37,990 bases of DNA, from the IMG/VR virus record IMGVR_UViG_3300030329_003305, positions 1 to 37,990 of that record; one strand, given 5' to 3'. Positions within the stretch are counted from its first letter, which is position 1; each line of letters starts with the position of its first letter. This document shows positions 457 to 35,729 of this stretch, piece by piece. Source of the DNA: a virus. The notes beneath the pieces were generated by a model. It was not told the origin of the DNA. It made no database searches and worked only from the letters and a program-made list of their open reading frames with translations. The position numbers and the translations under genes are program-made.

Positions 457-540
457 TGCCGGACATGCCGGGGTCATTACTACCTAATATAGAGAGGGTA
501 ACAGTATATATAGGTAACTCGACACCCGGCACACCTGGCA
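457..540. repeat. Left copy of an 84-nt paired element (GC inverted repeat around an AT-rich core)
   Basis: The element reads TGCCGG (457), TGCCGGGG (466), an AT-rich core containing ACCTAATA and TATATATAGG, then CCCGGCA (525) and TGGCA (536). The arms can pair as two stacked stems. The same blocks at the same spacing recur at 35647-35729. A TAG trinucleotide lies directly left (454-456), and the stop codon of the minus-strand 66-aa gene lies directly right, so the element sits at a gene 3' end. It has no T-run, so it is not a classic intrinsic terminator. A bidirectional terminator, a protein-bound site or an origin-like element are all possible. Confidence 0.75.
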
Positions 541-545
541 CAGTA

Positions 546-746
546 TCAAACATCGTGGATTCTAAGAACTGCCTTCCTAGCAGGGCACAAAGCTAGAATC
601 TCATAGGAACTATCCTCGTCATTCCAAATCCTCTTTACTTCCCACGTCTCGCAACCATCATCCACAAAGGACATGGTTTTTCGATCTTCCAGTTGCTCAA
701 CAATCTGGTCTACTACATCTCCCCAATCAGGGGTCTCTTCAAACAT
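546..746 (-). CDS. Small acidic hypothetical protein (66 aa)
   Basis: An unrecognised 66-residue protein rich in Asp and Glu, with a Trp-containing middle (ETWEVKRIWNDEDSSYEILAL) that looks like a small beta-strand domain. The start is supported by an AGGAG ribosome site six bases upstream; that site overlaps the stop codon of the helicase gene, nine bases away. The pair therefore looks translationally coupled. It is the last gene of the leftward unit and ends a few bases before the left 84-nt element. There is no membrane segment or signal peptide. A helicase accessory factor is possible from context only. Confidence 0.6.
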   Translation of the reverse strand: MFEETPDWGDVVDQIVEQLEDRKTMSFVDDGCETWEVKRIWNDEDSSYEILALCPARKAVLRIHDV

Positions 747-755
747 AACTAACTC

Positions 756-2171
756 CTAAGCCAAGTCTTCAAAGTTTCTTCTGAGGCTCAAACCCTTGAG
801 CCCTCTCTTACTGTCCGCACTAGGTCTGTGCCTGTAGATATTCCAACTACTCTGGCCCTCGATCTGCAGAGCAATCTGGTTACGGGGTACATTCACACCC
901 TTTACACCATTTCGCTCCAACCAGTCCATCCATTGGGTCCAAATCATCTCAGTAGCCACAAAACCTTGCGGGTTCCGGAGGAAACGCTCCTCCAGGAAAT
1001 GATCAAACGGATTGTTCTGCAAGTGGTACAACTTGACTGCATCTTCTGCCTTCTTGGGAGCGGGGAATCTGTGTTTCGGAGACGGTGCCGTTTCTACTTT
1101 GTGAGCACCTTTTACAGCCCAAGCTGCAATTCCGGGTAGCTCATCCATCAACTGACCCAGCAGGTCAGGATTCTCCCTGCCCTCAAACGTAACCTCGAAG
1201 GGGAGAACCAGCATTTTACTCGATAATCCCCTACCCTTATTGGGCAACTGGGGGATCTCGTTGGCCTGCACCATGGGGGCAGCATCTACAACGATATTAC
1301 GCATCTGCCTTCTGAACTTGATATTTACTGAGATCGGATCCTGGCCCACGATATTCTTGAGCACCCTCGTCGCCTTCTCGCCCATCCGATTATCCAGCTC
1401 ACTTACCTCTGAGATGCACAAAACCCTTGAGTGCTCCAAGCCATCTAACCCAAAGTCCCCTGCCAAGTCATCCAAGCTCGTACCCATGAAACAATCTGGA
1501 CCGATAAGCTTCTCGGTTATCTTTCCAATCGTTCCTTTCCCCGCTCGAACCTTACCGTACATCAACAACCACTTGGCGTGCTTCCGGTGAGGCATCAAGC
1601 AATAACCCATCCACCTCTGAAGCAGGTCGATCCAAACCGGATCACCTTCACTCCACTCCTCCACCGACTTCATCCATACAGGGCACTCTGCATCAGGGTC
1701 CCACTTCACCGGGATCGTCACAGGATCAAACCATCTCTCGTCCCTCTCAAGGACTTCCATGGTCTTACAGTCAACGAGTGAATCTTCGAAAGCAACAATC
1801 GTGTCACTGTTGATCTTCTCTGTTCCCAACCAAACCGGTACCTTCGTATGAGGCAGTCTAACCCTGGCCTCCAAAGCCCTTACGACGTTCTCAATTTTTG
1901 ACCTGTTAGGGTGAAACCTCCTAGAGATTATTTCACCGTTTGTCGCACGATCTCGATAGTAAGCATCTTCTAGCAACCTCCAGCAGGTATCCTCTAACCA
2001 TACGAAATCCCTGACCTCCCACCGATTGCCGTACCACTGATAAAAAGCTTCTCTGTAGCTCCAAAGCCCCGGTCTATTCTGGGGAGTATTGAAAAAATTC
2101 CTCAATAGAAACCCCGCTACCTTCATAGGTTCAGCGGATTCCATTGGTCTATCTTGCGTAGCCACTTGCAT
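756..2171 (-). CDS. Superfamily 3 / D5-like replicative helicase
   Basis: A probable replication helicase of the phage/plasmid D5 (P4-primase C-terminal) type that unwinds DNA with ATP. From the chosen start (471 aa) the Walker A loop is GKVRAGKGT at residues 206-214, Walker B is LCISEV at 251-256, and a sensor-like Asn sits in QANEIP near 304, in the order usual for superfamily 3. The N-terminal part resembles the D5 N-terminal region; no primase active-site motif is evident, so it seems to be helicase only, shorter than full primase-helicases. I prefer the ATG at 2171, which has an AAAGGA site seven bases upstream, over an in-frame GTG at 2198 that has none. It is transcribed leftward, opposite to the virion genes, with a 66-aa gene downstream. 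Confidence 0.8.
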   Translation of the reverse strand: MQVATQDRPMESAEPMKVAGFLLRNFFNTPQNRPGLWSYREAFYQWYGNRWEVRDFVWLEDTCWRLLEDAYYRDRATNGEIISRRFHPNRSKIENVVRALEARVRLPHTKVPVWLGTEKINSDTIVAFEDSLVDCKTMEVLERDERWFDPVTIPVKWDPDAECPVWMKSVEEWSEGDPVWIDLLQRWMGYCLMPHRKHAKWLLMYGKVRAGKGTIGKITEKLIGPDCFMGTSLDDLAGDFGLDGLEHSRVLCISEVSELDNRMGEKATRVLKNIVGQDPISVNIKFRRQMRNIVVDAAPMVQANEIPQLPNKGRGLSSKMLVLPFEVTFEGRENPDLLGQLMDELPGIAAWAVKGAHKVETAPSPKHRFPAPKKAEDAVKLYHLQNNPFDHFLEERFLRNPQGFVATEMIWTQWMDWLERNGVKGVNVPRNQIALQIEGQSSWNIYRHRPSADSKRGLKGLSLRRNFEDLA

Positions 2172-2214
2172 AAACGTATCCTTTCTAGTGAAAACCACTT
2201 AATAAGGGCAACCC

Positions 2215-3936
2215 ATGGCCATTACCCCTCGTCATTTACGTGAAGAAAACCTAACTGCAAAAGAAATCCAAGATCTACGAGATTATGCAAACGAACGCTA
2301 TCCTCGATTTCCTCGTAGTTTTATAGGTCAAACACAAGCAAGAAATAAGTTGCGGGAAGTCGAGAAGCTAGTAAGAGAAAAATATCCCGAAAGACTTGAA
2401 GAGCTTGGTTTTGAAACCGAGAGCAAAAAAACTAAGACTGAGAGGGAACCTGAGAGGGAAGTTGAAGAGAAGCTCTCTGAGATGCTTGTCGAGGGATCGA
2501 CCGGTGCCTACGAAAAGGAAGACGTAAAGCCTAAGGCCAAGGCTAAGAAGTCTAAGAAGGCTAAAGAGGAAGATGTTGCAAGTAACTTCTTCGAGGAACA
2601 AGAGCGAGAGTTTGCTGCTCAAAGGGATGCTGCTAGTGGTGAGTTCAGCGTCGAAGAAGCCATGCAAAAGAGGCAAGGTGAAATCGACGACGAGGTACGT
2701 CATCAACTCATCATGCAAGGCAATCTTACACCAGAAGAGGTTGATGAGCAACTCAAAGATATGGTCATCAACAAGGCTAAAGATGAACTCTTTGAGGAAC
2801 GAGATAGACAAGAAGAGGTTTATGGTCCAGGTTCTACTCATATCTACGAAAACCCGACTGATCCTTCAGGACGAAGCAATCAAGTCGTTCGACCTTGGTG
2901 GCAACAAGGAATGGATGATCAGAAAGAACCCGGTATGTCTCTTGAGGAATATGAAAGGTTGAAGGAAAGCGATGAGTACCAGAGTTCCTTTGATGAAAGA
3001 GACGAGCGAGCCCTTAGAGGAACACCTACAGGAGAGTCTTCGAAGAAGAAACCTAAGAAGGAACCTGAGCCGGTAGGGGAAGAAGTATTTCTTTCTCGAT
3101 TGGCTAAAGAACTTGGCATTACAGATCCAGAAGATCGTGTATCTAGTGCGGCATTTAGGAAAATAAAGAAACGCCTTAAAGAGCAAGGAACCTTCCGCTT
3201 TGGTGAATTTGTAAGAGATGAAGAGCTTGCTGGCGCATTTGAATCTGAAAGAGAAATTTCTAGGCGTATGTCTCATATACCTAGGAGACAGCAAGGATAT
3301 AGAAACGCAGAGGAACGAATTAACAATCTCGAATCAAAGAAGAGGTATCTAGAATCAGTACAGAATAGATACCGCCATAATCCGACAACATCTCCTATAC
3401 CTTACAATTCTCTTGCCCCAGCACTTAGAGATCTGAATAGAGAATACAATCTATTGAATAGTAAGCATCGGTCCAGAAAGAACCTGACTGAATCAGCGCA
3501 AGATAGAAGGATGGAGGCGTTGGCGGGTCAGATTTTGGCTGGTGTTAGTTTTGAAGATGCTGAAGCTATCGCGGAGGGAAGAATGCCTATATCTTCAGGG
3601 CCCAATCATTCAGGACCAGGACCTATCCCTCCTTCTAAGGTAGATACACAAATGAGAGGGGGTCCAGATAACTCTCAAAAGAAAAGCACGTCAGACTCAG
3701 AAGACTGGACAGACAAGATGCCGAGAAAGGACCCTGGAGAGTGGGCAAGACGTAACGCAGAAAAACAGGGATCGAATGACAGTAAGAAACCTGAGACTGA
3801 GGACTCGACAGATAAAAAGGAAGAAAAATCTACTAGGCGTCCTTCTCAACCGGAATTTTTCTTTGACCCAGACCAGTGGGAAGACTGGGGTCTAGGAGAA
3901 GGGGTTTATGACGTAACGCCTGGAGGAGGATTTTAG
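2215..3936 (+). CDS. Large charged, low-complexity protein of unknown function (573 aa)
   Basis: Not recognised. A compact N-terminal segment (residues 1-65, LTAKEIQDLRDYANERYPRFP...) looks helical. The rest is dominated by Lys, Glu, Arg and Asp with Pro-Lys-Ala and Ser/Pro tracts, and should be largely disordered or coiled-coil. The C-terminus becomes aromatic (FFFDPDQWEDWGLGEGVYDV), which suggests a short docking motif. It opens the rightward gene block, 43 bases from the divergent helicase start, with only a weak ribosome site (AAGGGC). The next gene starts three bases after its stop. Being first, before the packaging genes, it could be a DNA- or capsid-associated protein, but no motif proves this. 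Confidence 0.7.
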   Translation: MAITPRHLREENLTAKEIQDLRDYANERYPRFPRSFIGQTQARNKLREVEKLVREKYPERLEELGFETESKKTKTEREPEREVEEKLSEMLVEGSTGAYEKEDVKPKAKAKKSKKAKEEDVASNFFEEQEREFAAQRDAASGEFSVEEAMQKRQGEIDDEVRHQLIMQGNLTPEEVDEQLKDMVINKAKDELFEERDRQEEVYGPGSTHIYENPTDPSGRSNQVVRPWWQQGMDDQKEPGMSLEEYERLKESDEYQSSFDERDERALRGTPTGESSKKKPKKEPEPVGEEVFLSRLAKELGITDPEDRVSSAAFRKIKKRLKEQGTFRFGEFVRDEELAGAFESEREISRRMSHIPRRQQGYRNAEERINNLESKKRYLESVQNRYRHNPTTSPIPYNSLAPALRDLNREYNLLNSKHRSRKNLTESAQDRRMEALAGQILAGVSFEDAEAIAEGRMPISSGPNHSGPGPIPPSKVDTQMRGGPDNSQKKSTSDSEDWTDKMPRKDPGEWARRNAEKQGSNDSKKPETEDSTDKKEEKSTRRPSQPEFFFDPDQWEDWGLGEGVYDVTPGGGF

Positions 3937-3939
3937 GAT

Positions 3940-4443
3940 TTGGAAAACCGTTTCTACATTAGTTTCGGAGGCGTTCGACTTCTCTCTGAAGACTCTTATA
4001 TCTCAGAGATGAACGGAATGACTAAGCGGGGATTCAGAGCTTTTTGCAAAGCACTAAGGGTTCCGATGGTTGAGATAGGGAAGGAGAGGTATGTCGAAGC
4101 AACCTCTTTCCTTTTGGCTATGAGGTCTATCACTAGGATTGGACAGCCAGACTTTCTGGCTCCCGGTTGTGAGACCATAAGAAAGAACAGGCGGAAGAAC
4201 GAGGTTGGTGAGCTGGACCTAGAGGAATTCAGGAAAAACTTTGAGGTGGTTGTAGCAGAACTACTTGCCTCTAAGAAGTTGAATTCGAATACACTTAAAA
4301 TGGATGTGAAGAAAGCAGCTAGGGAAGCAGCTGATAGGATGCTGAGAGCTGGTCTTCAATTCTTACCTTCTAAGGAACAGAGAAAGTATGATCGCTCTGT
4401 GTTGAAAGTATATGGCGAAGGGCAAAATAACGAAGAAGAGTGA
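3940..4443 (+). CDS. Putative DNA-binding protein with winged-helix-like N-terminus
   Basis: This 167-residue protein starts at a TTG preceded by a strong GGAGGAGGA site about ten bases away. Residues 28-65 (MTKRGFRAFCKALRVPMVEIGKERYVEATSFLLAM) follow the helix-turn-helix plus wing layout seen in excisionase/MerR-like domains: 'choose an unusual residue, check the wing, bind'. The C-terminal half is helical and charged. It lies at the place where small terminase subunits usually sit, so it may recognise the packaging site, or it may be a late regulator. It overlaps the next gene by 32 bases. The domain call is by eye and moderate; the function is inference. Confidence 0.55.
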   Translation: MENRFYISFGGVRLLSEDSYISEMNGMTKRGFRAFCKALRVPMVEIGKERYVEATSFLLAMRSITRIGQPDFLAPGCETIRKNRRKNEVGELDLEEFRKNFEVVVAELLASKKLNSNTLKMDVKKAAREAADRMLRAGLQFLPSKEQRKYDRSVLKVYGEGQNNEEE

Positions 4444-4912
4444 AGTACCTGACCCAGGAGTGCTTGGGTTTTTTGGTATTGATCCTGTCACAGATGCTAT
4501 AAAAGCTTCAAGGTTTGACGTACAAGAAGAAATAGAGACTATAATCACACACGTTAGAGACGGTGATCCAAAAGTTTCATTGCCTGCTCTTAAACATCTA
4601 AGAACTGTTTTGAAGGAGGTAGCTGCAGCGAACGGGCTATTCGGAACAGTTCAACAAACAAGAAGTGTTGAGAACGGAGAAGGGAAAGTAACAAAGACCC
4701 TTTCTACAAATACACTTCTCTCCAACCTAATGAAGGAGAACGAAAATGACAAAACCCAAGACGGATATGAAGTCCTCAGTCCCATTGAGAAGACAAACCA
4801 TGTCCTCCAAGAACCCCTCCCCAAAAACCCCGGAGGTTCCGGCGGTCGTATTAAGTCCGCCGGAACCGATGGGGCATACGACGGAAACGATGGAAATACT
4901 GAAGACGTTTGA
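4412..4912 (+). CDS. Terminase small-subunit candidate (166 aa)
   Basis: Not recognised by motif. Residues 20-95 are predicted helical (DPVTDAIKASRFDVQEEIETIITHVRDGDPKVSLPALKHLRTVLKEVAAANG), a short helical bundle resembling the body of some phage small terminase proteins. The C-terminal 55 residues are Gly/Asn/Asp-rich and probably disordered. It overlaps the gene before it by 32 bases. Its disordered tail is encoded by DNA that also encodes the N-terminus of the following gene in another frame (167-base overlap). Two genes upstream of the large terminase is a usual place for the small subunit, which binds the packaging-start site. The assignment rests on position. Confidence 0.5.
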   Translation: MAKGKITKKSEVPDPGVLGFFGIDPVTDAIKASRFDVQEEIETIITHVRDGDPKVSLPALKHLRTVLKEVAAANGLFGTVQQTRSVENGEGKVTKTLSTNTLLSNLMKENENDKTQDGYEVLSPIEKTNHVLQEPLPKNPGGSGGRIKSAGTDGAYDGNDGNTEDV

Positions 4913-5189
4913 TCAGTATGACTTTGTTCGCGTTTGTGCCCTACCGATCATAGACCTGGGAATCTCTAATCCTGCAGATATGTGGGCCAAAGACTTCAAT
5001 GACTTGGCTACAAGATGCAGGTCTGAAATTATAGATGAGAATGGGCAAGTAAAAAGTAAGTGGATCGGAGTGTGTAATTATCTTCAAGACTCTACTCCCA
5101 TCATGACACCTGAAATCCTAGCTGTTTCAATTTGCAAGATTGCAGGGTGGAAAGCTTTCTTGCGAGATGTAGATGGCAAAGTGGATTGA
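4746..5189 (+). CDS. Hypothetical protein upstream of terminase, overlapping its neighbour
   Basis: This 147-residue protein has a Pro/Ser/Lys-rich N-terminal 50 residues followed by a compact domain (FDQYDFVRVCALPIIDLGISNPADMWAKDF...ICKIAGWKAFLRDVDG). Its ATG at 4746 is backed by an AAGGAG site seven bases upstream. Later ATGs at 4870 and 4891 would remove most of the overlap but have weaker sites. With the first start, 167 bases are read in two frames. Its end overlaps the large terminase start by 17 bases, implying coupled translation with the packaging motor. No motif is recognised; a packaging accessory role is inference from position. Confidence 0.6.
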   Translation: MTKPKTDMKSSVPLRRQTMSSKNPSPKTPEVPAVVLSPPEPMGHTTETMEILKTFDQYDFVRVCALPIIDLGISNPADMWAKDFNDLATRCRSEIIDENGQVKSKWIGVCNYLQDSTPIMTPEILAVSICKIAGWKAFLRDVDGKVD

Positions 5190-7125
5190 AAAGAAAGATA
5201 ACCCTCTTTACCCATTACCTGCTGACTACGCAGAGTTATCAGAAGAAGGTCAAAGACAAGCAAGAGTAAATGCTTGTCGTATGTGGACGGCCACAAAAGA
5301 TAGAAGCCAATCCGAAATAGGAGAGGCTTTTGTTTCTGGGGTTAGATTTTTTGATCTTTGGTACTTAGTGCCGGACCACGAAAATGATTTTGATCCTCTC
5401 TTTTACGATGACGATCCTTTGGCTACTCCTACGTTCCATTTTGACATCCTTAAAATATGGTCGTCAACGAGCAGGAACATCACGATTGCCCCGCGTGGAT
5501 CCGCGAAATCCTTTCTTGTGAGGAAGGCATGTTTATTGAGGATGATCAGTCGTCCTGTGTACACGATCCTTTACGCTACCTCCACAAACGATAATGCAAA
5601 GGGGATGGGTCAGTGCCTAAAAGATCAGTTCCTACACAACCAAAGACTCCAAGACGATTGGAACCCAGAGTTCCCAGACAACCGGATCGCCCCAAAAAGA
5701 GGCGAGGCACCCTTCGGCACCGAGATGCTTCAGCTCCGCAACGGCTCATGGATTAGGTGCATCTCCGCTGAAAGTCGTCAGCGTGGTGGACGACCCAGAC
5801 GTTACGTCTTGGATGACCCCGAGTACGATCCGAAGGCATCTACTTCGATGTCACTTATCCGGCAGTACATGGATGACTTGTTGTTCAAGATCGTTCTTCC
5901 GATGGTCATGCGTAAGGGTTGTGGTGTTGACTGGTTGGCTACGTTTGTTTCCAGGCGTCACTATGCTTGGCACGCCTTGCAGACAGAAGCTAACGAGCAA
6001 GGCAATCAAGTTGCACAAGATCCCAGATTTAACATGTGGGCAAGAACCATCATCCGCGCTGCATACGAAGATAGCGAGGGTAAGTTGCAATCTTGCTGGC
6101 CAGATATGTGGCCTGCATCCAGGGAAGAAAAGGAAAATAATCCTAGGTTGGAGGATCGGGTATCTCTGGAAGAGATCAAAGAAATCATCGGCACCTCTAA
6201 CTTCCTTGCGGAGTACATGGCGCAACCGGGTTCATCCGAAGACTCTTACTTCCCTCCTCTGGAAAAGGAAAGACACGGATGGTGGCTCACAAAAGTTGAC
6301 GATGTCTTTGAGCAAAACCCAAGAGCGTCAGATGCAGAGTTGAACTGGTACGACGGAGAATCTTATCGCTCTATTCCTATAAGCGAGTTCCTAAGTCAGG
6401 TTCGATTGTTCATGACTGTTGATACCTCATACACAGCGACTAGGGATTCAGACTTCAAAGTCGCTTGTGTGATGGGTGTAGACCCTTTTAACAACCTGTT
6501 TGTTTTGGATATGTGGAGTGGGCAATGCCAGGAATCCCGACTCATATCAGAGATCTTCAAGATGGCGGACAGGTGGAGAGTTCCGACGATTCACCCAGAA
6601 GCAATCAAACAGGGTCTTGGTCTTTGTAATAACCTTGATGCAATCGTAAAGACCAGAGCTAATGAGCTTGCTGGTGTCATGCACCTGCCGGGGATCAAGA
6701 AGCTAAATCCTGGTCAGGTAGAAAAGGTCTCCAAGATTGCGGGACTAGACCTGCGGTTTGAGCATGGAAAAATCAAGATGCCTATTTTCCTGAGGCATAA
6801 ACCCCAGTGGGCCAGACTGTTCGATCAGATTGAGCAGTTCAACCCGGACGCCAAGGACGGGGGCCTCCAGCACGATGACGAATTGGATAGCGTGGCCATG
6901 TCCCAGTTCATCATCAGGGGCCGGGTTCCAGTTAAGCAAAGGGAAGAAAAAGCCCCATTCGACCCACTGGAAGAAATCGCCAGAGGCAACTATCTTGATC
7001 AAGCGGGGAATCCAATTGGTTTCGGTGTGGACTGGAGCAAGGTACCCGCACACAGAATATTGGAAATGACTCAAGACATAACAGATTTAGAGGAGGACGC
7101 ATCTGATGGAGCAACCAGGGTTTGA
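5173..7125 (+). CDS. terL: Terminase large subunit (packaging ATPase and nuclease)
   Basis: The DNA-packaging motor, which pumps the genome into the procapsid with ATP and cuts the concatemer. In the N-terminal ATPase the Walker A loop is PRGSAKS (residues 107-113), preceded by hydrophobic ITIA. Walker B is YVLDD (211-215), with Asp214/Asp215 as acidic residues and Glu217 close by. The C-terminal RNase H-like nuclease shows its first Asp at 417 (TVDTSYT) and the last acidic cluster as HDDELDS (567-573). At 650 residues it is somewhat longer than typical. It overlaps the upstream gene by 17 bases and the downstream gene by 20. Placing the terminase ahead of the portal differs from T7, where it is near the end of the late genes. 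Confidence 0.95.
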   Translation: MAKWIEKKDNPLYPLPADYAELSEEGQRQARVNACRMWTATKDRSQSEIGEAFVSGVRFFDLWYLVPDHENDFDPLFYDDDPLATPTFHFDILKIWSSTSRNITIAPRGSAKSFLVRKACLLRMISRPVYTILYATSTNDNAKGMGQCLKDQFLHNQRLQDDWNPEFPDNRIAPKRGEAPFGTEMLQLRNGSWIRCISAESRQRGGRPRRYVLDDPEYDPKASTSMSLIRQYMDDLLFKIVLPMVMRKGCGVDWLATFVSRRHYAWHALQTEANEQGNQVAQDPRFNMWARTIIRAAYEDSEGKLQSCWPDMWPASREEKENNPRLEDRVSLEEIKEIIGTSNFLAEYMAQPGSSEDSYFPPLEKERHGWWLTKVDDVFEQNPRASDAELNWYDGESYRSIPISEFLSQVRLFMTVDTSYTATRDSDFKVACVMGVDPFNNLFVLDMWSGQCQESRLISEIFKMADRWRVPTIHPEAIKQGLGLCNNLDAIVKTRANELAGVMHLPGIKKLNPGQVEKVSKIAGLDLRFEHGKIKMPIFLRHKPQWARLFDQIEQFNPDAKDGGLQHDDELDSVAMSQFIIRGRVPVKQREEKAPFDPLEEIARGNYLDQAGNPIGFGVDWSKVPAHRILEMTQDITDLEEDASDGATRV

Positions 7126-7408
7126 TCCTAGATATCACGCTGTAGTACCGGTATCTTATCTTGACAGACTACTCCGCTGTTACTACGGAAACGGGCCTAG
7201 GGACGGAGAGAAATTTAGTGGCTTTGAGCCCGAAAGCCCAGGTACAGAGGTTGTCGGTGGTTTGAACTTCAAAGACTTGGAACTGGTACAAGAAACTCCC
7301 GAAGGTTACACTCCTAAGGGAGTAGCAAAGAGAAAACAAGAGGCTAAGGATGCCCATCGACACGATCCAACTACCGAAGGACAAGACAGCTCTAGCGAGA
7401 ATCATTGA
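7106..7408 (+). CDS. Small protein between terminase and portal (100 aa)
   Basis: Unrecognised, 100 residues. The N-terminal half (FDPRYHAVVPVSYLDRLLRCYYG) is aromatic and may fold; the C-terminus is hydrophilic and ends in a Glu/Lys then Ser/Asp-rich tail. The ATG has a strong GAGGAGG site about nine bases upstream, inside the end of the terminase gene, and the two genes overlap by 20 bases. The portal gene starts 59 bases before this gene ends, so part of the disordered tail shares DNA with the portal N-terminus. Tight packing on both sides points to a head-assembly role, but there is no motif to name one. Confidence 0.65.
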   Translation: MEQPGFDPRYHAVVPVSYLDRLLRCYYGNGPRDGEKFSGFEPESPGTEVVGGLNFKDLELVQETPEGYTPKGVAKRKQEAKDAHRHDPTTEGQDSSSENH

Positions 7409-9383
7409 TCAGCATGCGGAGCGAGAAACGTCTCGTCTTTCGTATAGGCGGACAATGTGGCTCCTGGCTTGGTATTACCTGAATGGCGCTAGACGTTTTG
7501 ATATTTTTGATCCTGTCCAAGGAACAATCCATCCTCATTATCTAGATGAGGAAGGAAATATGGAGTACCAGTCTCAGGAGCTTTTGTCTGCGATTGACAA
7601 AGTTTCTGCCCGAATGGCCTCTATGGATTTGATGCCTAGGGTTTTCCGCAAAGGCAATAGCTTGACTGCTATTCGAGACCGCTCAGTTGCCCAGCTAATT
7701 CTGAACTCGGTGGTATCAGAAGACCAGCTTGACAAAGTAAAGACCCAGTTCTCACACATATTCACAACCCTCGGTTCTTGTGGTATTAGCGGTCATATTG
7801 TCGATCATGCGACAATAGGTCTGACTTCTGATCTTGAAGTCATTCACCCTAGAGAACTGTTCCCGTTCCCCACAATCGGCAGTGATTACACCAAACAAAG
7901 AGGATTGATGAGGCAGAGGTCCGTACCTATCTCTTTCCTGAAGGAAGTCTTCGGTAAGAAGGTTTCTTCCAACCTCGAAAAGATGGAGTACTGGGAACGT
8001 AGTTACGGGGAAGACATTGACGAACACCATGATATGTGGGGAGGAGGGGGATCCGGGATCAACTACAACGACGAATCAAATGCAATCCGAGGGCACGAAT
8101 CCTCCGAGAATACCGCGATGGGTATCGCAAGGATCCGGGAGCTTTGGCTCTTCGGTTCCGCCAACACGGTCAGCAGATACGTCGTAACAAGCGGGGACTA
8201 CGTCCTGCATGATGAGGATTACGAGGGCCTGGAAGTCTTCTGCCCTATCGGATTCGCTAGGTTCATGGAAACAGGCTCGTTCCACGGAAGCGGTCTCTTC
8301 GATGTTCTCTTCTCAGTATCAAGAGAACTCGAAAGGATGATGAAACAGGTATTCAATAATGTTCGTGATCAGGATCGCTATGGTGTTTTGGTTATGCCTC
8401 AAGGGCAGATGAACGAAAGAACCATGCTTCGAGATGTAGGCAAAGGTCTTCGTGTCATGCCTTGGGAACCGGATCCAGTTTCGGAAGGATTCCGTCCCTT
8501 TGCAATCCAACCTTTCAACACGGGAGATGTTCCCGGTAAGACTGCAATGCTTGCAAAGCAAGCCATGGACGGCTTGAATCCGATTCGGGATCTTATCCGT
8601 GAGAAGGGACGTGTTGACTCAGCTGCTGGTCTTTCGTTCCTGGATGAGCAAGTCAACAAGGCTATGACCAATCCTACACGGGGCATAGAAGCTGCCTTCA
8701 GTGCTTGTTATCAGTCCCTGTTATCGGGGGCTAACCGTGTGATCATGAGTTCAAATAGGGCAATCCCTATCAATGATTTGAATCTTGATATGGCAGGTGC
8801 AGTATTTGATAAGAAGAACGGCACAGTTAGTTTCCAGGGTGCAAACCCAATTCCTTCTGCTAGTAGGTTGAAGTTTGGGATCAAGGAGAGAAGTCCTCGT
8901 TCTCAGGTCGCACGCAAGCAAGAAGCTATGGAACTACTCAAGGCAGGAGTAACAGACCCTGATGCCTTAAAGTTGTTTGCATTACAAGAGGGCCTTGATT
9001 TTGCGATGTATATCGAAGAAGAGAAATCGGCCTATCAAGCGGTAGTTGAAAACTGCTTGAGCTTGTACTCAGACGGCGATTCTCCGGGAGAGGTTGTTGT
9101 TACACCACACACCGCTAGTCCTAAGATTCAGTTGCGGGTAGTAACCGCGTTTATGACTAGCCCTGTGATGATGGCTGCTTCCCCTGAAGTACAAGATGAG
9201 TTTATGAAATACCGTCAATTCCTGATGGATTCAATGGGAATGACTCTGCCTGAGGCAGTACCAAACCCAGATGATATGGCTATCCTGATGCAAGCAGAAC
9301 AGGCTGTTCAGGAACAGATGATGCAAATGCAGGGTCAGGGAGGACTTCCCGGCCCCCAACCCCCTAGTCAAGGAGCCGCGTAA
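7350..9383 (+). CDS. Portal protein
   Basis: Forms the ring at the capsid vertex through which DNA enters and leaves and to which the tail attaches. At 677 residues it is in the large, podovirus-like portal range. Features consistent with the family are the N-terminal helical region with WLLAWYYLNGARRFDIFDP, the beta-rich clip/wing centre, the helical stem-like segment FSVSRELERMMKQVFNNVRDQDRYG with a following VMP, and a Gln/Met/Pro-rich C-terminus as in barrel-type tails. There is no single invariant motif, so the call leans on length, composition and its place directly after the terminase and before the scaffold and capsid genes. Start: AAGAGG six bases before the ATG. Its stop overlaps the next start (TAATG). 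Confidence 0.85.
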   Translation: MPIDTIQLPKDKTALARIIDQHAERETSRLSYRRTMWLLAWYYLNGARRFDIFDPVQGTIHPHYLDEEGNMEYQSQELLSAIDKVSARMASMDLMPRVFRKGNSLTAIRDRSVAQLILNSVVSEDQLDKVKTQFSHIFTTLGSCGISGHIVDHATIGLTSDLEVIHPRELFPFPTIGSDYTKQRGLMRQRSVPISFLKEVFGKKVSSNLEKMEYWERSYGEDIDEHHDMWGGGGSGINYNDESNAIRGHESSENTAMGIARIRELWLFGSANTVSRYVVTSGDYVLHDEDYEGLEVFCPIGFARFMETGSFHGSGLFDVLFSVSRELERMMKQVFNNVRDQDRYGVLVMPQGQMNERTMLRDVGKGLRVMPWEPDPVSEGFRPFAIQPFNTGDVPGKTAMLAKQAMDGLNPIRDLIREKGRVDSAAGLSFLDEQVNKAMTNPTRGIEAAFSACYQSLLSGANRVIMSSNRAIPINDLNLDMAGAVFDKKNGTVSFQGANPIPSASRLKFGIKERSPRSQVARKQEAMELLKAGVTDPDALKLFALQEGLDFAMYIEEEKSAYQAVVENCLSLYSDGDSPGEVVVTPHTASPKIQLRVVTAFMTSPVMMAASPEVQDEFMKYRQFLMDSMGMTLPEAVPNPDDMAILMQAEQAVQEQMMQMQGQGGLPGPQPPSQGAA

Positions 9384-10315: not shown

Positions 10316-10330
10316 TGAGGAGAAGCCAAA

Positions 10331-11905: not shown

Positions 11906-11937
11906 TCTGACTGAAGGAAGTCCTCCTTCCCCTGATC

Positions 11938-11973
11938 GGGACCCCCCAGCCTCCGGGGGGTCCCTTTCTTTTA
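11938..11973 (+). terminator. Strong intrinsic terminator after the capsid gene
   Basis: A perfect ten-base-pair GC-rich stem, GGGACCCCCC pairing with GGGGGGTCCC, with a seven-base loop, followed by TTTCTTTTA. It starts 33 bases after the capsid stop and precedes the gene at 12027. It should release most transcripts and separate capsid expression from later tail genes. Confidence 0.95.
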
Positions 11974-12026
11974 TTTCCCCGCTAAGTGGTTACAATTAGA
12001 CTACCCCAAGAATAAGGAAGACAAAA

Positions 12027-12569: not shown

Positions 12570-12572
12570 ACC

Positions 12573-13484: not shown

Positions 13485-13487
13485 TAG

Positions 13488-14621: not shown

Positions 14622-14630
14622 TTTTTAATT

Positions 14631-22520: not shown

Positions 22521-22521
22521 T

Positions 22522-23982: not shown

Positions 23983-23987
23983 TTTAG

Positions 23988-26156: not shown

Positions 26157-26523
26157 TTGGAAAAGTATGTCTAAGAAGGTATCTGAGATTCACTCCCAGG
26201 AAGGCCGCGCTGCTGTCGATAAGACAGGCAGGGACGCTATGGAGTTGCCTTACCCTCTCATCAACACAATCCCCGAAGACAAACTAATGTCACTAGCGGG
26301 GAAAAATATCAGTCCAAAAGCAATCCGTAAGTTTACTTGGGAAAATCGTAAGGAACGGTTTATCACAAGAGACAAGACCGTAATCTGGACTTATTACGAT
26401 CTAGATTCCGATACCTCCTATGTGGGCGCAGGAGCCTTCGTAGAACCTAAAGCACTCAACAAAGTGAAAGAAGAGAACGTGTTGCGTTCTTACGAAAGCG
26501 AGAACCCCGATGTCACAGTTTAA
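26146..26523 (+). CDS. Small hypothetical protein (125 aa)
   Basis: Not recognised. The best start is TTG at 26146, five bases after a GGAGG site; an in-frame ATG at 26167 would shorten it by seven residues. The N-terminus is Lys/Ser/Glu-rich. Residues 36-65 carry the helical NTIPEDKLMSLAGKNISPKAIRKFTWENRKERF, and a short beta-rich section (TRDKTVIWTYYDLDSDTSYVGAGAF) follows. It overlaps the preceding gene by 11 bases and the next by 14, typical of a compact late operon. The AGCGGGGA motif occurs in the middle of the gene (Leu-Ala-Gly codons). A minor virion protein is possible. Confidence 0.6.
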   Translation: MKTDWKSMSKKVSEIHSQEGRAAVDKTGRDAMELPYPLINTIPEDKLMSLAGKNISPKAIRKFTWENRKERFITRDKTVIWTYYDLDSDTSYVGAGAFVEPKALNKVKEENVLRSYESENPDVTV

Positions 26524-27235: not shown

Positions 27236-27243
27236 TAAAGACA

Positions 27244-27780: not shown

Positions 27781-27784
27781 AACA

Positions 27785-28162: not shown

Positions 28163-28164
28163 TA

Positions 28165-28224
28165 GAGAAACCCTTTCTCGTTTGTTGAGGCGGGGGCGGT
28201 TGGTGCAAGCTAACCGCCCCTTTT
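28165..28224 (+). terminator. Tandem hairpins with strong intrinsic terminator
   Basis: A small hairpin GAGAAA-CCC-TTTCTC begins three bases after the stop. It is followed by a nine-pair stem GGGGCGGTT (28193-28201) with AACCGCCCC (28212-28220) and a TTTT run. The next gene's ATG is at 28229, so the terminator ends where the next start begins. This should cut downstream expression sharply. Confidence 0.93.
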
Positions 28225-28228
28225 CACC

Positions 28229-29428: not shown

Positions 29429-32400
29429 TGGCTGTTGAATTCCAACCAACTCAGTTTCAGCCAGTAACCTTTTACGATCTTCCTACCCTTGCGTTCTCGC
29501 AGGTAATGGAAGGAGAGTTTACTGTTCCGGGATTCTTTTCCGGTATATCTGAAGCTACAGGTATTGGTAACGCAACACTTACTCCCACTGAACGGGAGAG
29601 CATAGTTGACCAGCAAAAACAGAAGCATGGTTTAACTGGTATTTCTGGTGCTCTTGCAGATATCGCAACTAACCCTTGGGTCTGGTTTGCGTTCTTGACT
29701 ACCCCGGGTGCAGTGAGTGCGCTAAGGAACAGCACAAAAGGAATCTTCAAGGTTAGTCCTGAGTGGCATGTCTTCAATAGAGAAAATGCTCCTTGGCTCA
29801 TAGGCTGGAGATTCCTTACGGGCAATCAGATATTTAGAAACACCCATCTCCATCCTGCTATGACTGCTGTAGCTAAGGAGAGAAACAAGCAGATCCAGTA
29901 CATGGAAGAAGTACTGCAGCCTGCGAGGGAAGAAGTACTAGCTAACCTGAACTCTATGGGCATCCGGGTAAAGACCCTGGATCCTACAAAAGCTCCGGTT
30001 CAACACCGCGATCTCCTCAAAGACATCGACATTGCAATACACGGAAGACTAGCGGGGAAAGACAGAGCAACAAAAGAAGTTGTATCGAAAATTGAACAAG
30101 AGATGGGGGAGTTTACTTTCACTCTCATTAAAGATGATGGAAGTAAATACGAAAAGCTTGTAAAGGCAATGGATCTTGATGATGCCAAGAGAGCTTTGGT
30201 TCAAACAGGGGACATGAGATCCTTAAATAATTTCGACAAAGCTGTAATGAACAAGAAACCAACTGCAAAGTTGGTCGAAGAGGTTGTAAATGTAGATCCT
30301 ATTATGTCGCGTGTTTCCGTTGATGAGACAATCAATAAGTACGGTCTTCAACCGATGATTGATTCGATGAGAAACTACTACGACGAGATGGGGAAAAGGC
30401 TTTTCCTTAATGAGGATCTTCTTACTCGCAATGGTATTACGAGTCCTGAAGCTTTACGAAGAGTTATGGAAACTCCGGAATCTCTTAAGCAATATGTAGA
30501 CAAGGATAAGGTAGTAAACCTATGGAAGTCGGCAGAGCTTAGAAGTGTAAGTGCTAATGCTGAAGGAGAGATGAGTAAGAGAGCGACGGAGGCTGCCGGT
30601 GATTTGTTTTCTGTTTCTCAAAACAGATCAGACAATCCTGGTCTTAGAACAGTTCGTGAAATCATGAACTTTGTAGATGCAGAAAGCAGATTCGGTAAAG
30701 AGATTAACTTTGACACTCTTGTACGGTCTGAAGATTTGGGGGATATGATTTCCCGTGTTGTATCTAACAACATGGCTGGAGGTAAGTATCACCCAAAACT
30801 TTATGACAGTGTAGACGGAACGGGAAGGTCTCTGCTTCGTAAAGCTGTGAGGTCTTCAGGTAAGAAGACGGTGGATCAAGCGATTGCTGCAGGTCACGTT
30901 CTACCTAAGAATCCTAGGAACTCCTTTGGTGTTTACTCAGCGGAAGACATTGAGGCATTAAAGAGATTATCTAATAATGATCCCCGCTTGATAAAACGGT
31001 TAGAAAAGATTGAGGCCCGTCTAAAAGCTGTATCGAGTGATCCTACTAAAGAAGGTATGGTTACTGTTCAGAGATTGGGGGCACACGACGCCGTAAAGTT
31101 TTACGGTATGAATAGTGCAAACACCTACGCTACTTTTATACATGGTGCTAGGAAAGTAAACGGTAAAAATGTATACGACCCAGAAGTTTGGAGTGCTGTT
31201 TCTGGTGCGCAAAAAGGTAGTCAGAGATACTATGATTTTGATGACGTATCTAAGGGGGCAGGGGAAGAGCTTGTATACAATTCATCTGTAACAAAAGCTA
31301 GGAACAGAGATGTTCTTTCTGAGTTACCAGATGAAATGCAGCCCTACAACAATAAGTATGGGTACTTCACACTTGGTGATGCGATCAATCAGGTGCATGG
31401 GAGTGTAAGAGAACCAGGGCTAAAGGGGATTATTAAAGATGTTCTGGTTCCTCAGATGTTGGGGCGTCAGACTATTCAGCACTCGACCGAGAACCTTCTC
31501 GCTCACAGTACAGCCATGGCTGCAAAGAAAACTGCGGGTTTGATGAGGAACATGGGAGTCGATAAGACTGACTTGGGTGCCGGGGTTGTAAAAAAGTTGG
31601 AGGAGTTCCATGACTCCCCTATGAGTTTCATAGGTTCTGGTACGTCAGGGGGACTTGCTCGATACCTCTACATTACTCACCTGGGTTTCAATCCTGCGTC
31701 TGTTATTTTGAACCTTACTCAGCCGTGGTTGCTTGGTGCTACTCAAATGGGAGTGGGACCAATAATCAAAGGTTACGGTCAGGCATTCAAGGAGATGGGT
31801 AACTATCTGATTGAGAGATTGCAGTCGGGTAAGGTTTTTGCAACAGATGCTGAAAAAGCTCTGGCGATAAAGAACAACTTTAAGCATGCAGAAGAGATGG
31901 GAATTTCTCCTGATACCTTCCGGAATCTGGATGAAGTCATTCATTCAGTAGATAGAAGTAAATCGGGATTGTGGGATCGACTCTCTGGTTTGAGTATGAA
32001 GGTCTTTGAGAAGGCTGAGTGGATGAACCGTTCGGTTGTGTCTCATGCAGCTGACGATCTATTCAAAACCACAGGAGCAGCTAGTTCTCCATTTAGGAGA
32101 CAGGCTGTCAGGGAGATGATTCAAGAAACTCAGTTCGGTGCTGACTTCTTGAATACTCCTATGACCTTCATGGGATATGGGTCCTTGGGTCAGTGGTTTG
32201 GAAGACCTGAGATGAGACAGTTCCTTACCTTCCCTCTTAGATCGGTAACAGGTATTGCTGTTACTTCTAAGCAGATCAATGAGGGACGAAGAAAGGTCAT
32301 GGGATTTGATGTTCCATTCGGTAGAACGGTGGACTTCATAAGGGGCTTGGGCGTATCGGCTGGCTTGTACTACGCAGGTAGGAACATGTTTGAAGCCGAC

Positions 32401-33294
32401 ATGTCAAAAGCTTTGTTCTACAACTCGATGACGGACATCATCGGGAACGACCCCTTCAACGATTACGAGAATGCAACTGACTTCATACCTGTACCTCCTG
32501 TCATAGACATGGGCTACGACGCCATTAGGGGTATTACCTCGGGGGATACCGATCTACTGGCTAATGGTATTTGGAGAATGGTTCCTGGTGGTATTGCTCT
32601 TTCAAGAGCATTCGCAACTGCACCCCAATACTTGGGACTGCCTTCCGATAATCCTCTGGCTCGCATGGTTGGCGACTTCCAGAAGAGATACGCATCGTAT
32701 GATAACCCTTCTCCTACAGGTGAGATTCCTATCTTCAAAGGGGATGGTACGTTTGTTGAGTTCAGGAATCCTATGCAGCTTGTTCTTCAGGGACTTGGCT
32801 TGGACCTCAACGCATCAAAGGTTAGATCAGAAGAGACCGGGTATTATGTCAAGCAGAGAGAGATGATCTTGCAGAGCAGGCAAGAGATTATCTCTAAGCT
32901 ATTGGCAAATGATATTCCTGGTGCAATGAAAGCTAAGGCAAGGTATGAAAAGAGAATGGGTATACCGTTCTCCCTGACTAAGGAACAGCTTCGTCAGTTC
33001 ATGAGAAATAGACAGGTACCTAGAAACGAGAGGATCCTGGATCGAATACCGCCAGAAGCTCGTCACCTGTACTCTAAGTTTGCAGCTGCGGATATGGTCA
33101 ACAAGGATGTTGACCCCTCGGTATTTGTGGACGCTCCTACGTCATCTGCCCGATCAAAGGTTATGGAGAGACCCCAGACATTCGACGTACAAGCAGAGTC
33201 GATTGCTCAGATGAGAGAGCTAATCAGGGAAACAGAAGAAAGAAAGAGGCTTTCGGAAATGGGGTTCACGAACTTTACCTCTTTCGGTGAATAA
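29428..33294 (+). CDS. Large internal (ejection-type) virion protein, 1288 aa
   Basis: I prefer the ATG at 29428, overlapping the upstream stop (TGATG), over the TTG three bases earlier. The protein is mostly helical. Residues near 750-790 (HLGFNPASVILNLTQPWLLGATQMGVGP) and later MNRSVVSHAADDLFKTTGAASSPFRRQAVREMIQETQFGADF, then FGRPEMRQFLTFPLRSVTG, resemble the long internal or polyvalent virion proteins of marine podoviruses. The C-terminus again has a charged helical tail. No catalytic site is identified. The length and the place before the lysis genes agree with a T7 gp16-like position, which is ejected with the genome. Several hydrophobic stretches could cross the host membrane. Confidence 0.7.
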   Translation: MAVEFQPTQFQPVTFYDLPTLAFSQVMEGEFTVPGFFSGISEATGIGNATLTPTERESIVDQQKQKHGLTGISGALADIATNPWVWFAFLTTPGAVSALRNSTKGIFKVSPEWHVFNRENAPWLIGWRFLTGNQIFRNTHLHPAMTAVAKERNKQIQYMEEVLQPAREEVLANLNSMGIRVKTLDPTKAPVQHRDLLKDIDIAIHGRLAGKDRATKEVVSKIEQEMGEFTFTLIKDDGSKYEKLVKAMDLDDAKRALVQTGDMRSLNNFDKAVMNKKPTAKLVEEVVNVDPIMSRVSVDETINKYGLQPMIDSMRNYYDEMGKRLFLNEDLLTRNGITSPEALRRVMETPESLKQYVDKDKVVNLWKSAELRSVSANAEGEMSKRATEAAGDLFSVSQNRSDNPGLRTVREIMNFVDAESRFGKEINFDTLVRSEDLGDMISRVVSNNMAGGKYHPKLYDSVDGTGRSLLRKAVRSSGKKTVDQAIAAGHVLPKNPRNSFGVYSAEDIEALKRLSNNDPRLIKRLEKIEARLKAVSSDPTKEGMVTVQRLGAHDAVKFYGMNSANTYATFIHGARKVNGKNVYDPEVWSAVSGAQKGSQRYYDFDDVSKGAGEELVYNSSVTKARNRDVLSELPDEMQPYNNKYGYFTLGDAINQVHGSVREPGLKGIIKDVLVPQMLGRQTIQHSTENLLAHSTAMAAKKTAGLMRNMGVDKTDLGAGVVKKLEEFHDSPMSFIGSGTSGGLARYLYITHLGFNPASVILNLTQPWLLGATQMGVGPIIKGYGQAFKEMGNYLIERLQSGKVFATDAEKALAIKNNFKHAEEMGISPDTFRNLDEVIHSVDRSKSGLWDRLSGLSMKVFEKAEWMNRSVVSHAADDLFKTTGAASSPFRRQAVREMIQETQFGADFLNTPMTFMGYGSLGQWFGRPEMRQFLTFPLRSVTGIAVTSKQINEGRRKVMGFDVPFGRTVDFIRGLGVSAGLYYAGRNMFEADMSKALFYNSMTDIIGNDPFNDYENATDFIPVPPVIDMGYDAIRGITSGDTDLLANGIWRMVPGGIALSRAFATAPQYLGLPSDNPLARMVGDFQKRYASYDNPSPTGEIPIFKGDGTFVEFRNPMQLVLQGLGLDLNASKVRSEETGYYVKQREMILQSRQEIISKLLANDIPGAMKAKARYEKRMGIPFSLTKEQLRQFMRNRQVPRNERILDRIPPEARHLYSKFAAADMVNKDVDPSVFVDAPTSSARSKVMERPQTFDVQAESIAQMRELIRETEERKRLSEMGFTNFTSFGE

Positions 33295-33305
33295 GAATCA
33301 GTGTC

Positions 33306-34073
33306 ATGGATTCAGCAAAGTTTGTAGCGGTTTCGTGCATCCACGTACCTAACCACTCAGAGCACGCCAAGCAGCATTTGATCTCTAGGCTCGAAGAAAT
33401 CAAGCCTACCCACTTCATAGTCCTTGGGGATCTCTTTGATGCTGCAGCTGTCTCGGTACACAACGATGAGTTTTACCAGTCTCTTGAGGATGAATATGAG
33501 GTAGGGGCCAAGTACCTGTCTGACATCCGTGAGAGTCTTCCTTCAAGCACTACCTTGGTGTGGTGCTTAGGGAACCACGACGACAACATACAGGCTAAGG
33601 ATCCCAGAAGGACAAACATAGGCCAGAGATCGCTGCTCCATTGGAACAAGCACAAGGAATTTGGAGATGAGTTCCTGAGGTGGAGACAGATCCCATACGA
33701 GAAGTCGGCCAGGGGTCTGTATAGGCTGGGTCCTTGTCGCTTCTATCACGGCTTTGATGTGGGTGCCAGCTCAGATGATTTGGAGACCCTGCAAATGGTC
33801 TCCACTATCAAGGATCAGGCTTATTCTTTCTGGGTAAGGGGCCATACACACAGGCCTACCCCCCATGTAATGCAGTGCAGGAGAACTCAGAAGATACTTC
33901 TTCCTTGGTTTTATGCTAACGCTGGTACAATGGGTCCGTTGCAGCCGGACTACATGGCCCGGAAAGATAGCAGTCAATGGGGTCACGCCCTAGTCGTAGG
34001 TGAGTGTTCCCTTTCTAGTCCCCGAAGACCCAGCACGAAAGACTGGGACGCCCACGTAGAACTAATAGGTTAG
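33306..34073 (+). CDS. Calcineurin-like metallophosphoesterase with altered first metal motif
   Basis: A 255-residue protein of the calcineurin-like phosphoesterase family, which hydrolyses phosphomono- or diesters with two metal ions. Motifs in order: SCIH (residues 10-13), GDLFD (41-45), GNHD (89-92), HG (148-149) and GHTH (179-182). All metal ligands are present except the usual Asp of the first D-x-H motif, where Cys11 stands. Either this enzyme uses Cys or one metal, or it is weakly active. Many phages carry such enzymes for nucleotide or nucleic-acid turnover; the substrate cannot be read from sequence. The start has only a weak ribosome site; it lies 11 bases after the preceding stop, and the next gene follows after four bases. 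Confidence 0.9.
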   Translation: MDSAKFVAVSCIHVPNHSEHAKQHLISRLEEIKPTHFIVLGDLFDAAAVSVHNDEFYQSLEDEYEVGAKYLSDIRESLPSSTTLVWCLGNHDDNIQAKDPRRTNIGQRSLLHWNKHKEFGDEFLRWRQIPYEKSARGLYRLGPCRFYHGFDVGASSDDLETLQMVSTIKDQAYSFWVRGHTHRPTPHVMQCRRTQKILLPWFYANAGTMGPLQPDYMARKDSSQWGHALVVGECSLSSPRRPSTKDWDAHVELIG

Positions 34074-34077
34074 ACCA

Positions 34078-34638
34078 ATGGCATACGAAAACTACAATAG
34101 TCCTGAAGACGAGTTTATGTTTGAAGAGCAGGCCCCTGATGCACCAAATGTGGGCCGATACTACGGACTAGAGGACGATTTTTCTGGTAACTGGTTCCAA
34201 GCTTCGCGAGCTTACAAAGACCGTGCTCAACAGGAATACGATAAACGTGCTCTCCAGATGAAGCAGGGCTATGAGAAAGCTCTCATGGGTATGGGTGAGG
34301 ATGCGAGTCAGGAACAGAAAAGCAAGCTACGTGGTATGTATGAGAGTCGAAGTAAGTTGTTCCAAGACCAATGGCGAGAAAGCCAGCAGCAACAACTAAA
34401 TACTATGAAGGCAGCATACGACAAGGACATGGGCATCTTCCGAAGAAGGACCAGAGAGTATGAAGCCAGGAAGAAACAGGCATTCCAGAGATTTCAAATG
34501 GAAAAAGCAAGGAGGAAGAGGGAAGCCCTAAAGGCACAAGCAATGAAAGAATCTGAAATGCTGAACATGAGGAGGAAATTTAGAATGAGTCCTCGTCAAC
34601 TTGAAGCTGAAAGAATGAGATCTTTGTTCGATGGCTGA
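34078..34638 (+). CDS. Coiled-coil protein (186 aa)
   Basis: Not recognised. The first 45 residues are acidic and Tyr/Asp/Pro-rich. The remainder is a long, highly charged helix (EYDKRALQMKQGYEKALMGMGED...RRRTREYEARKKQAFQRFQMEKARRKREALKAQAMKESEML), probably coiled coil, ending in SPRQLEAERMRSLFDG. It starts four bases after the phosphoesterase stop and overlaps the endolysin start by eight bases. A late structural, spanin-like or chaperone role is possible, but there is no signal peptide or membrane segment, so spanin is unlikely. Confidence 0.65.
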   Translation: MAYENYNSPEDEFMFEEQAPDAPNVGRYYGLEDDFSGNWFQASRAYKDRAQQEYDKRALQMKQGYEKALMGMGEDASQEQKSKLRGMYESRSKLFQDQWRESQQQQLNTMKAAYDKDMGIFRRRTREYEARKKQAFQRFQMEKARRKREALKAQAMKESEMLNMRRKFRMSPRQLEAERMRSLFDG

Positions 34639-35356
34639 AACTCGTAAAGTAAAAGAAGGTGACACCCTCTCTTCTATTGCGAAGGAGAGGGGTATGTCAT
34701 GGAAAGATCTTTACGAGATAAACAAAGGGGTTATTGGCGACAACCCCAACATGCTGAAAGTTGGAACCCAGCTTCGCTTCTCAAAACCAGAAGCCAAGAT
34801 GGAACCCAAGGCTCAGACACCTGCTGCCCCTACTCCTACTCCAGATACTCTCACGGATAAGGAAGTATCTGCTTACATACAGAGCTACTTAGACCGTCCT
34901 TCATTTAGGAACAACGCTCCTGGTCCTCAGTTCACGGGAGAAGAAGTCTTGAGGGGGATGAAGAACTTTGCAGGTAAAGACCAGAAGAAAAGAAAGTTCA
35001 TCCAGAACTATCTCGACGAGTTCCTTGCCCAAGCACAGATCGAAGGTGCTCTACACGGCAAGGGTAGGAGTGCGAGGAACAATCCATTCAACGTGGGTGA
35101 GTTTGATGAAGGAACCAAGATGACTTTCGACTCTCCTGAAAAGGGAGTCTCTGCCTACTTGAACCTTATGTACAAAGATTACTTGCCTCGCGTGGACTAC
35201 GACTACGACAAGCTACTTTCTCCGGGCAACTTCGTGAACAAGGCTGGCAACAGGTACGCAAGCAAGCCAAACTACGAAGAGGTTCTCAGTGCCCAGTTGA
35301 ACTACATCCGCAACAAGCACACCCCTCCGTCTGGCAATTGGAGTTGGGAAGATTAG
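34631..35356 (+). CDS. Endolysin with LysM domain and lysozyme-like catalytic domain
   Basis: A 241-residue cell-wall hydrolase. Residues 4-50 (TRKVKEGDTLSSIAKERGMSWKDLYEINKG...LKVGTQLRF) form a LysM peptidoglycan-binding domain. A Pro/Thr-rich linker (57-75) follows. The C-terminal domain has AQAQIEGALHGKGRSARNNPFNVGEFD (Glu138 likely catalytic), the pattern of FlgJ/glucosaminidase or lysozyme-like enzymes that cut the glycan strand. No signal peptide is seen, so a holin would normally be needed; none is recognised next to it. Its first eight bases overlap the preceding gene, and its stop overlaps the next start (TAGTG). Confidence 0.85.
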   Translation: MAETRKVKEGDTLSSIAKERGMSWKDLYEINKGVIGDNPNMLKVGTQLRFSKPEAKMEPKAQTPAAPTPTPDTLTDKEVSAYIQSYLDRPSFRNNAPGPQFTGEEVLRGMKNFAGKDQKKRKFIQNYLDEFLAQAQIEGALHGKGRSARNNPFNVGEFDEGTKMTFDSPEKGVSAYLNLMYKDYLPRVDYDYDKLLSPGNFVNKAGNRYASKPNYEEVLSAQLNYIRNKHTPPSGNWSWED

Positions 35357-35646
35357 TGTCAGGCAGAAGCAAGAAAAAGCTCGACCAAGGTAACGCTAAC
35401 CAGTACAAGCACGCACTGGTTATATGGTTAGACATAGCGGGGAGGGATGACGCATGGATGGACATCTCAGACGCTAGAGGTTTGAAGCCTGCCCGAATGA
35501 TTACCAGCGGCTGGATCCTAAAAGACGTAGAGGACCACATCGTGGTAGCCTCATCCCTCGATACCCAGGAGGGACTAGCGGGGAACGTAAATGCTATTCC
35601 CCGCTGTGTGATTCAGACTATTCAGATCACTCCGAAGATCGAGTAG
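35356..35646 (+). CDS. Small hypothetical protein after endolysin (96 aa)
   Basis: I choose the GTG at 35356, overlapping the endolysin stop (TAGTG), over the in-frame TTG at 35338. The protein is a compact alpha/beta domain (HALVIWLDIAGRDDAWMDISDARGLKPARMITSGWILKDVEDHIVVASSLD...IPRCVIQTIQITPK) without membrane segments; it resembles small proteins often found near phage lysis genes, whose function is unknown. The gene holds three AGCGGGGA motifs, two of them as an inverted pair at 35577-35605. It is the last plus-strand gene, ending one base before the right 84-nt element. Confidence 0.65.
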   Translation: MSGRSKKKLDQGNANQYKHALVIWLDIAGRDDAWMDISDARGLKPARMITSGWILKDVEDHIVVASSLDTQEGLAGNVNAIPRCVIQTIQITPKIE

Positions 35647-35729
35647 TGCCGGGGGTGCCGGGTATACTATAACCTAATAGTATATAGGGTATACATATAT
35701 AGAGTGCTGTAGCCCCGGCACGTCTGGCA
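35647..35729. repeat. Right copy of the 84-nt paired element
   Basis: Blocks TGCCGG (35647), TGCCGGG (35656), CCCGGCA (35714) and TGGCA (35725) sit at offsets 0, 9, 67 and 78; the left copy has 0, 9, 68 and 79. The core between the arms (ACCTAATA, AGGGTA, TATATAG) also matches the left copy in outline, and adds a perfect eight-pair hairpin TATACTAT/ATAGTATA. It lies directly between two converging genes, after a TAG stop on the left and before the stop of the minus-strand 79-aa gene on the right. A bidirectional terminator or a protein-bound site is plausible. Confidence 0.75.

Follow-up and report, generated by a model that had tools for sequence, protein, structure and literature searches.

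The 37,990-base record of an uncultured phage (IMGVR_UViG_3300030329_003305, here called the window in its full length) carries two copies of an iteron dyad that are probably both bound by the phage's own SF3 initiator helicase. From the comparisons below, we propose that element 1, which sits 3′ of the leftward helicase gene, is the main replication origin and that element 2 acts either as another origin or as a helper. Element 1 would then be an origin of a known kind in its textbook place, and the unusual feature would be the second copy at the far end of the virion genes.

Two dyads share one geometry

Each element consists of two TGCCGG-type hexamers 9 bp apart, an AT-rich core of 51–52 bp, and the same pair again inverted (Table 1). 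Each element is an inverted repeat, since reverse-complementing blocks 1 and 2 gives blocks 3 and 4. Hexamer offsets are 0/9/69/78 in element 1 (84 bp) and 0/9/68/77 in element 2 (83 bp). The initial annotation had put both elements where we find them and had recognized the four GC blocks, with a one-base slip in the last two offsets (68/79 and 67/78). It had also described the AT-rich cores as similar and equally oriented, and the core words ACCTAATA...TATATAG are indeed common to both elements, so the two stand as direct repeats. Its view that such geometry is improbable by chance agrees with a strict dyad pattern that occurs twice in the window and in 0 of 300 dinucleotide shuffles. Across the elements compared, core length is mostly 50–56 bp, and core AT content is 65–80% against 49–62% for the genomes. 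The word CTAGCGGGGAA recurs in the window at 26291, 30047 and 37572, with a fourth copy, seen by eye, near 35580.

A leftward gene stops close to each element, 5 bp after element 1 (at 546) and 0 bp after element 2 (at 35730), within the roughly five bases previously reported. The TAG that had been noted in front of each element has two different meanings. Before element 2 it is the stop codon of a real gene, and no spare base separates this element from either convergent stop codon in the window or in its relative G001; in a further genome, L232, a stop abuts one side of the copy at this place and the other side is close. Before element 1, the TAG ends a frame (190–456) in a stretch that appears non-coding in relatives.

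Table 1. Positions of the two dyads, their parts and the neighbouring genes in the window.
Feature	Position	Strand	Description
Conserved non-coding block	387..443	+	Second conserved block, adjoins element 1; GGCCCCC-n21-GGAAAACACCGATCCCGTCTAGGAATTCC; relatives have it next to their helicase-linked dyad
Element 1	457..540	.	Iteron dyad TGCCGG-n3-TGCCGGG / 52-bp core / CCCGGCA-n3-CTGGCA; proposed replication origin
Element 1 left arm	457..471	+	TGCCGG at 457-462 and 466-471, 9 bp apart
Element 1 core	473..524	.	AT-rich, 65% AT vs 53% in the window; proposed melting region
Element 1 right arm	526..540	-	Inverted iterons CCGGCA 526-531 and CTGGCA 535-540
Small gene	546..746	-	66 aa, between the helicase gene and element 1
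SF3 helicase gene	756..2198	-	D5_N + DUF5906 initiator helicase of the SF3 type; winged helix predicted at the C terminus; proposed to bind both dyads
Last virion-block gene	35338..35646	+	phrog_25889; stop TAG abuts element 2
Element 2	35647..35729	.	Second dyad, 51-bp core; fills the gap between two convergent stop codons exactly
Element 2 left arm	35647..35661	+	TGCCGG at 35647-35652 and 35656-35661
Element 2 core	35663..35713	.	AT-rich, 71% AT
Element 2 right arm	35715..35729	-	Inverted iterons CCGGCA 35715-35720 and CTGGCA 35724-35729
Leftward gene	35730..35969	-	Stop abuts the other side of element 2

An SF3 helicase gene adjoins element 1

The product of the 756–2198 gene contains the Pfam domains D5_N and DUF5906, and its ortholog in G036 matches Pox_D5. 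It also matches PHROG DNA primase families (E 2.6e-57), where the match covers the helicase half only (positions 353–735 of 772 in PHROG 6088). A profile of 19 orthologs plus relatives retrieves the SaPI5 primase-helicase by sequence (7ola, E 1.9e-18), and the same structure is the best PDB match of an AlphaFold2 model of the protein (pLDDT 83; E 2.9e-18). Secondary structure prediction for the last 90 residues (382–472) gives helix-helix-strand-helix-helix-strand-strand, the order expected for a winged helix, so the C terminus is a predicted DNA-binding domain of this kind. The 756–2198 protein carries no primase domain, nor did the window yield a separate primase gene. Most relatives have a small ORF of ~60–100 aa (mostly 75–100 aa) between the helicase gene and the dyad; the one in the window matches no Pfam or PHROG family.

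The non-coding block that adjoins element 1 follows the pattern GGCCCC(C), ~21–29 nt, then GAAACACCGATCCYGTCTAGGAWTTYC, with nearly fixed spacing. It is also present in G001, G002, G004, G036, G040, G041, G047, G048, G008 and G009 and is more diverged in others. Considered as a structured RNA, the block yields three weak pairs only and no convincing covariation, and neither it, the window nor the helicase-linked region has a match in Rfam. It is perhaps an accessory origin site, a promoter or an RNA.

The dyad recurs 3′ of replicase genes in other phages

A dyad lies 3′ of the SF3 replicase gene in the window and in its relatives G001, G002, G004, G040, G041, G006, G048, G042 and G008. The same arrangement is found outside the family or at its edge, in G034, G036, G037, G038, AcaML1 and BPP-1, and in G039 the dyad stands at the end of a DnaG-type primase gene. 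Downstream of helicase orthologs the geometry is the same with other letters, such as TACCGG, ATCCGG and TACCAG. The letters drift by lineage, with TGCCGG, TACCGG and CTGACGGGT among the types, and are alike within each element. In the cultivated phages AcaML1 and BPP-1, the dyads were found by looking 3′ of the primase gene. That of AcaML1 has CTGACGGGT-type 9-mers, and the next gene runs in the same direction as the replicase. In Bordetella phage BPP-1 (L221), four exact TTGCCTCGT 9-mers form an inverted dyad with a 68-bp core 3′ of the primase gene bbp29. Judged by these comparisons, the dyad follows the replicase and not the phage.

Among the known phages looked at, only AcaML1 and BPP-1 show the dyad clearly; phiC31, Shambre1, Dubu and RcRhea, which have SF3 primases, carry no such dyad just 3′ of the gene. 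Mycobacterium phages Angelica (L181) and Aminay (L230) have tandem and inverted short repeats in another layout 3′ of the primase gene (repeat words AGCACAGAT; TATCCGGCACTGC and CAGTGTCGGA), and these clusters are possibly origins too. The strict dyad had 5 matches only in 84,980 cellular genomes, all by eye perfect palindromes or repeat tracts, and is thus not a common cellular element.

An unrelated group of GC-rich phages (G030–G033 and G058; L008, L010, L013, L014, L015, L021) carries extended TGCCGG dyads with the same 52-bp core, in G032 as two copies 18.6 kb apart. An SF3 replicase was not found on the incomplete contigs of this group, and the 921-aa and 655-aa frames beside its dyads match no family and may be spurious. 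These dyads count against the origin reading, which leaves them unexplained.

For the window itself, element 1 combines an adjoining SF3/D5-type helicase gene, a conserved place 3′ of that gene, repeated short sites whose letters are lineage-specific, and an AT-rich core. Together these features would place it with the iteron and stem-loop origins, and of the functions offered in the initial annotation they favour replication origins. Element 2 is at the virion/early junction, a long way from the helicase gene, and is therefore classed only as a look-alike site, not as a member of the origin class. GC skew gave no clear origin signal; a skew turn near element 1 in G001 arises because the helicase gene is itself strongly skewed.

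The second copy is conserved in a close group

Relatives were collected by two separate scans, of viral contigs for the dyad and for terminase relatives, and both scans met in the same genomes. Known phages gave no megablast match to the first 20 kb of the window and only a 21%-identical match to its terminase, in Enterobacter phage EcP1. G001 (52,210 bases, near complete, terminase 82% identical to that of the window) has both copies at the same places: one, at 50460–50543, is beside the helicase gene, the other, at 31259–31341, closes the virion block, and the arcs of the circle between them measure 19 and 33 kb. The helicase-linked copy is present in G002 (7462–7544) and G004 (1952–2033), whose contigs end short of the other site. 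A scan with the last virion gene located the late copy in L232 (3283–3365), so that element 2 is conserved in three genomes. Between the window and G001, hexamers are kept at 46 of 48 positions and cores at 87 of 109 (p=0.008). In 13 family records totalling 551 kb, a generic dyad pattern found nine sites, of which seven lie 3′ of the replicase gene and the remaining two where the virion and early blocks meet.

Farther relatives with long records (G040, G041, G042) have one dyad only and a virion/early junction of ~50 bp or less; twin copies are a feature of the window's close group only. The initial annotation had named a single copy with no conserved spacing in relatives as evidence against a meaningful pair; the first half of that description fits the farther relatives, whereas the spacing is strictly conserved. 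In farther relatives, 7 of 7 loci with other letters also have additional iterons beyond the dyad, in pairs or triplets spaced by 11 bp (background, 0.02–0.08 per 400 bp), and such outer clusters occur at 0 of 8 loci in the TGCCGG group. The window's group thus lacks outer clusters yet has a distant second dyad wherever the junction is visible, and the two facts may be linked.

The main rival reading keeps element 1 as the origin and has the same protein bind element 2 without ever initiating there; element 2 would be a decoy or would have a control function in copy-number titration, at the replication fork or in segregation. It draws on the absence, at element 2, of the second conserved block that adjoins element 1, and on the lack of any such copy in farther relatives. 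However, in the window and G001 the core words of element 1 recur in element 2 and none of the four hexamers is missing there, and a pure titration site would need no conserved AT-rich core. We regard a pure control site as rather unlikely.

Hexamers are conserved as repeated sites

The strands of the elements fold well (−31 to −47 kcal/mol, z −3.1 to −5.6), and a hairpin and a set of protein sites make different demands on the letters. Across 23 elements, the mean distance between hexamers within an element was 0.82, compared with 1.48 when hexamers were dealt among elements (p=0.0001), a likeness inflated among the many elements found with TGCCGG patterns; in 12 elements spanning the letter types the values were 1.24 and 2.03 (p=0.0001). 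Base pairing alone would give no reason for the two direct repeats of a single arm to be alike, yet they too show this likeness. Across the dyad, 87 of 96 hexamer cells are complementary in the window's group, as against 4 of 24 for the 3-nt spacers between hexamers, which the search left unconstrained. Since the spacers are unpaired while the hexamers are kept, the conserved feature in this group appears to be repeated protein sites, not a hairpin.

The same observations weaken the proposal that the elements are bidirectional transcription terminators, or 3′-end hairpins at gene convergence, that resemble each other through duplication. Such a role would suit the folding of the strands, the position of both elements at convergent gene ends and the short virion/early-junction gaps in relatives, in one of which (G025) there appears to be a hairpin. 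Yet a scan of both strands, which allows loops of 3–8 only, found no U-run terminator-like site, and termination leaves hexamers kept beside unpaired spacers unaccounted for. The architecture also recurs 3′ of replicases in unrelated phages, with a co-directional next gene in AcaML1. We judge that termination is improbable as the explanation of the elements, which may have a side role in it at the convergence point.

The initial annotation had further suggested module borders, that is, att- or res-like recombination sites that exchange gene blocks. A gene block with a direct repeat at either end invites this idea, but synteny and identity run on across element 2 between the window and G001 with no swapped blocks, relatives show the same order of the two blocks although they have no second copy, and the iteron letters drift with lineage in a geometry that fits helicase sites; we consider it very improbable. 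Least probable of all is a MITE-like small mobile inverted repeat inserted twice, which would match an 84-bp inverted repeat in two copies, one seated exactly between two stop codons, but not its confinement to two places that are both common to G001, with no dyads elsewhere in the 551 kb, nor arms made of tandem 9-bp repeats in place of ordinary terminal repeats.

Comparison with known initiator systems

Among self-loading initiator helicases, the C-terminal domain of SaPI Rep reads iterons directly downstream of its own gene, and SCCmec Cch2 likewise binds a site downstream of its own gene (PMC7581432). The window resembles them in having an initiator helicase with a C-terminal DNA-binding domain, here predicted, and short iterons directly downstream, and SaPI5 supplies the best structural match. 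It differs in its compact inverted dyad, in which a ~52-bp core separates two pairs of hexamers, and in a second dyad 19–33 kb away.

The origin of plasmid pRN1 is a ~100-bp stem-loop (21-nt stem, 58-nt loop) that lies 3′ of ORF904, a replicase combining AEP, SF3 and winged-helix parts, and is essential for replication; its authors noted a similar stem-loop in phage BIP-1 and described pRN1 as lacking iterons (PMC4234260). An inverted repeat 3′ of an SF3 replicase is common to pRN1 and the window. However, the arms are tandem 9-bp iterons here, as in BPP-1, and the spacers here can be unpaired, a point in favour of protein sites, and pRN1 has one copy where the window has two. The stem-loop described 3′ of the primase gene in BIP-1 and the BPP-1 dyad are probably one set of iterons.

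The alpha protein of satellite phage P4, an SF3 helicase with a winged helix and a Toprim-type primase, binds iterons at two cis sites, ori1 and crr, both of which that replicon needs; crr is a region of direct repeats a few kb from ori1. Two cis sites with the same iterons are likewise found in the window, but both are full dyads, they are far apart, and the helicase protein has no primase domain. In the tailed Streptococcus thermophilus phage Sfi21, the origin is non-coding and next to the primase gene. Javan49, the only streptococcal relative looked at, shows no clear 9-bp dyad.

Discussion

We favour the reading in which both dyads are sites for the helicase encoded beside element 1. Its winged-helix C terminus would read the 9-bp-spaced hexamers, and protein on the two inverted arms would assemble two hexameric rings that face each other across about five helical turns. 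These rings would melt the AT-rich core, from which bidirectional replication would start. Element 1 would be the main origin, and element 2, where the virion block ends, would offer the same protein another site and serve as a second origin or as a helper paired with element 1 in the way that crr is paired with ori1 in phage P4. Element 2 has neither an adjoining replicase gene nor the second conserved block, and it may not fire by itself.

We tentatively raise the possibility that this tailed phage has two conserved origins of the SF3-initiator type at separate places, the first next to the initiator gene and the other where the virion block meets the early block, with one helicase serving both. 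If it is true, the second origin arose in a lineage that lacks the outer clusters of 11-bp-spaced iterons found in its relatives, and the two arcs of the circle would be copied from two points, or the sites would cooperate over 19–33 kb.

The comparisons give a searchable signature for likely origins in uncultured phages: four words of 6–9 bp arranged as a dyad round an AT-rich core of mostly 50–56 bp, 3′ of an SF3 helicase gene. They also suggest that the stem-loop reported for BIP-1/BPP-1 is a set of iterons. The drifting letters provide pairs of helicase and site in which the evolution of initiator specificity can be studied, and the second copy provides a testable case of a phage that may have dual origins or a helper site.
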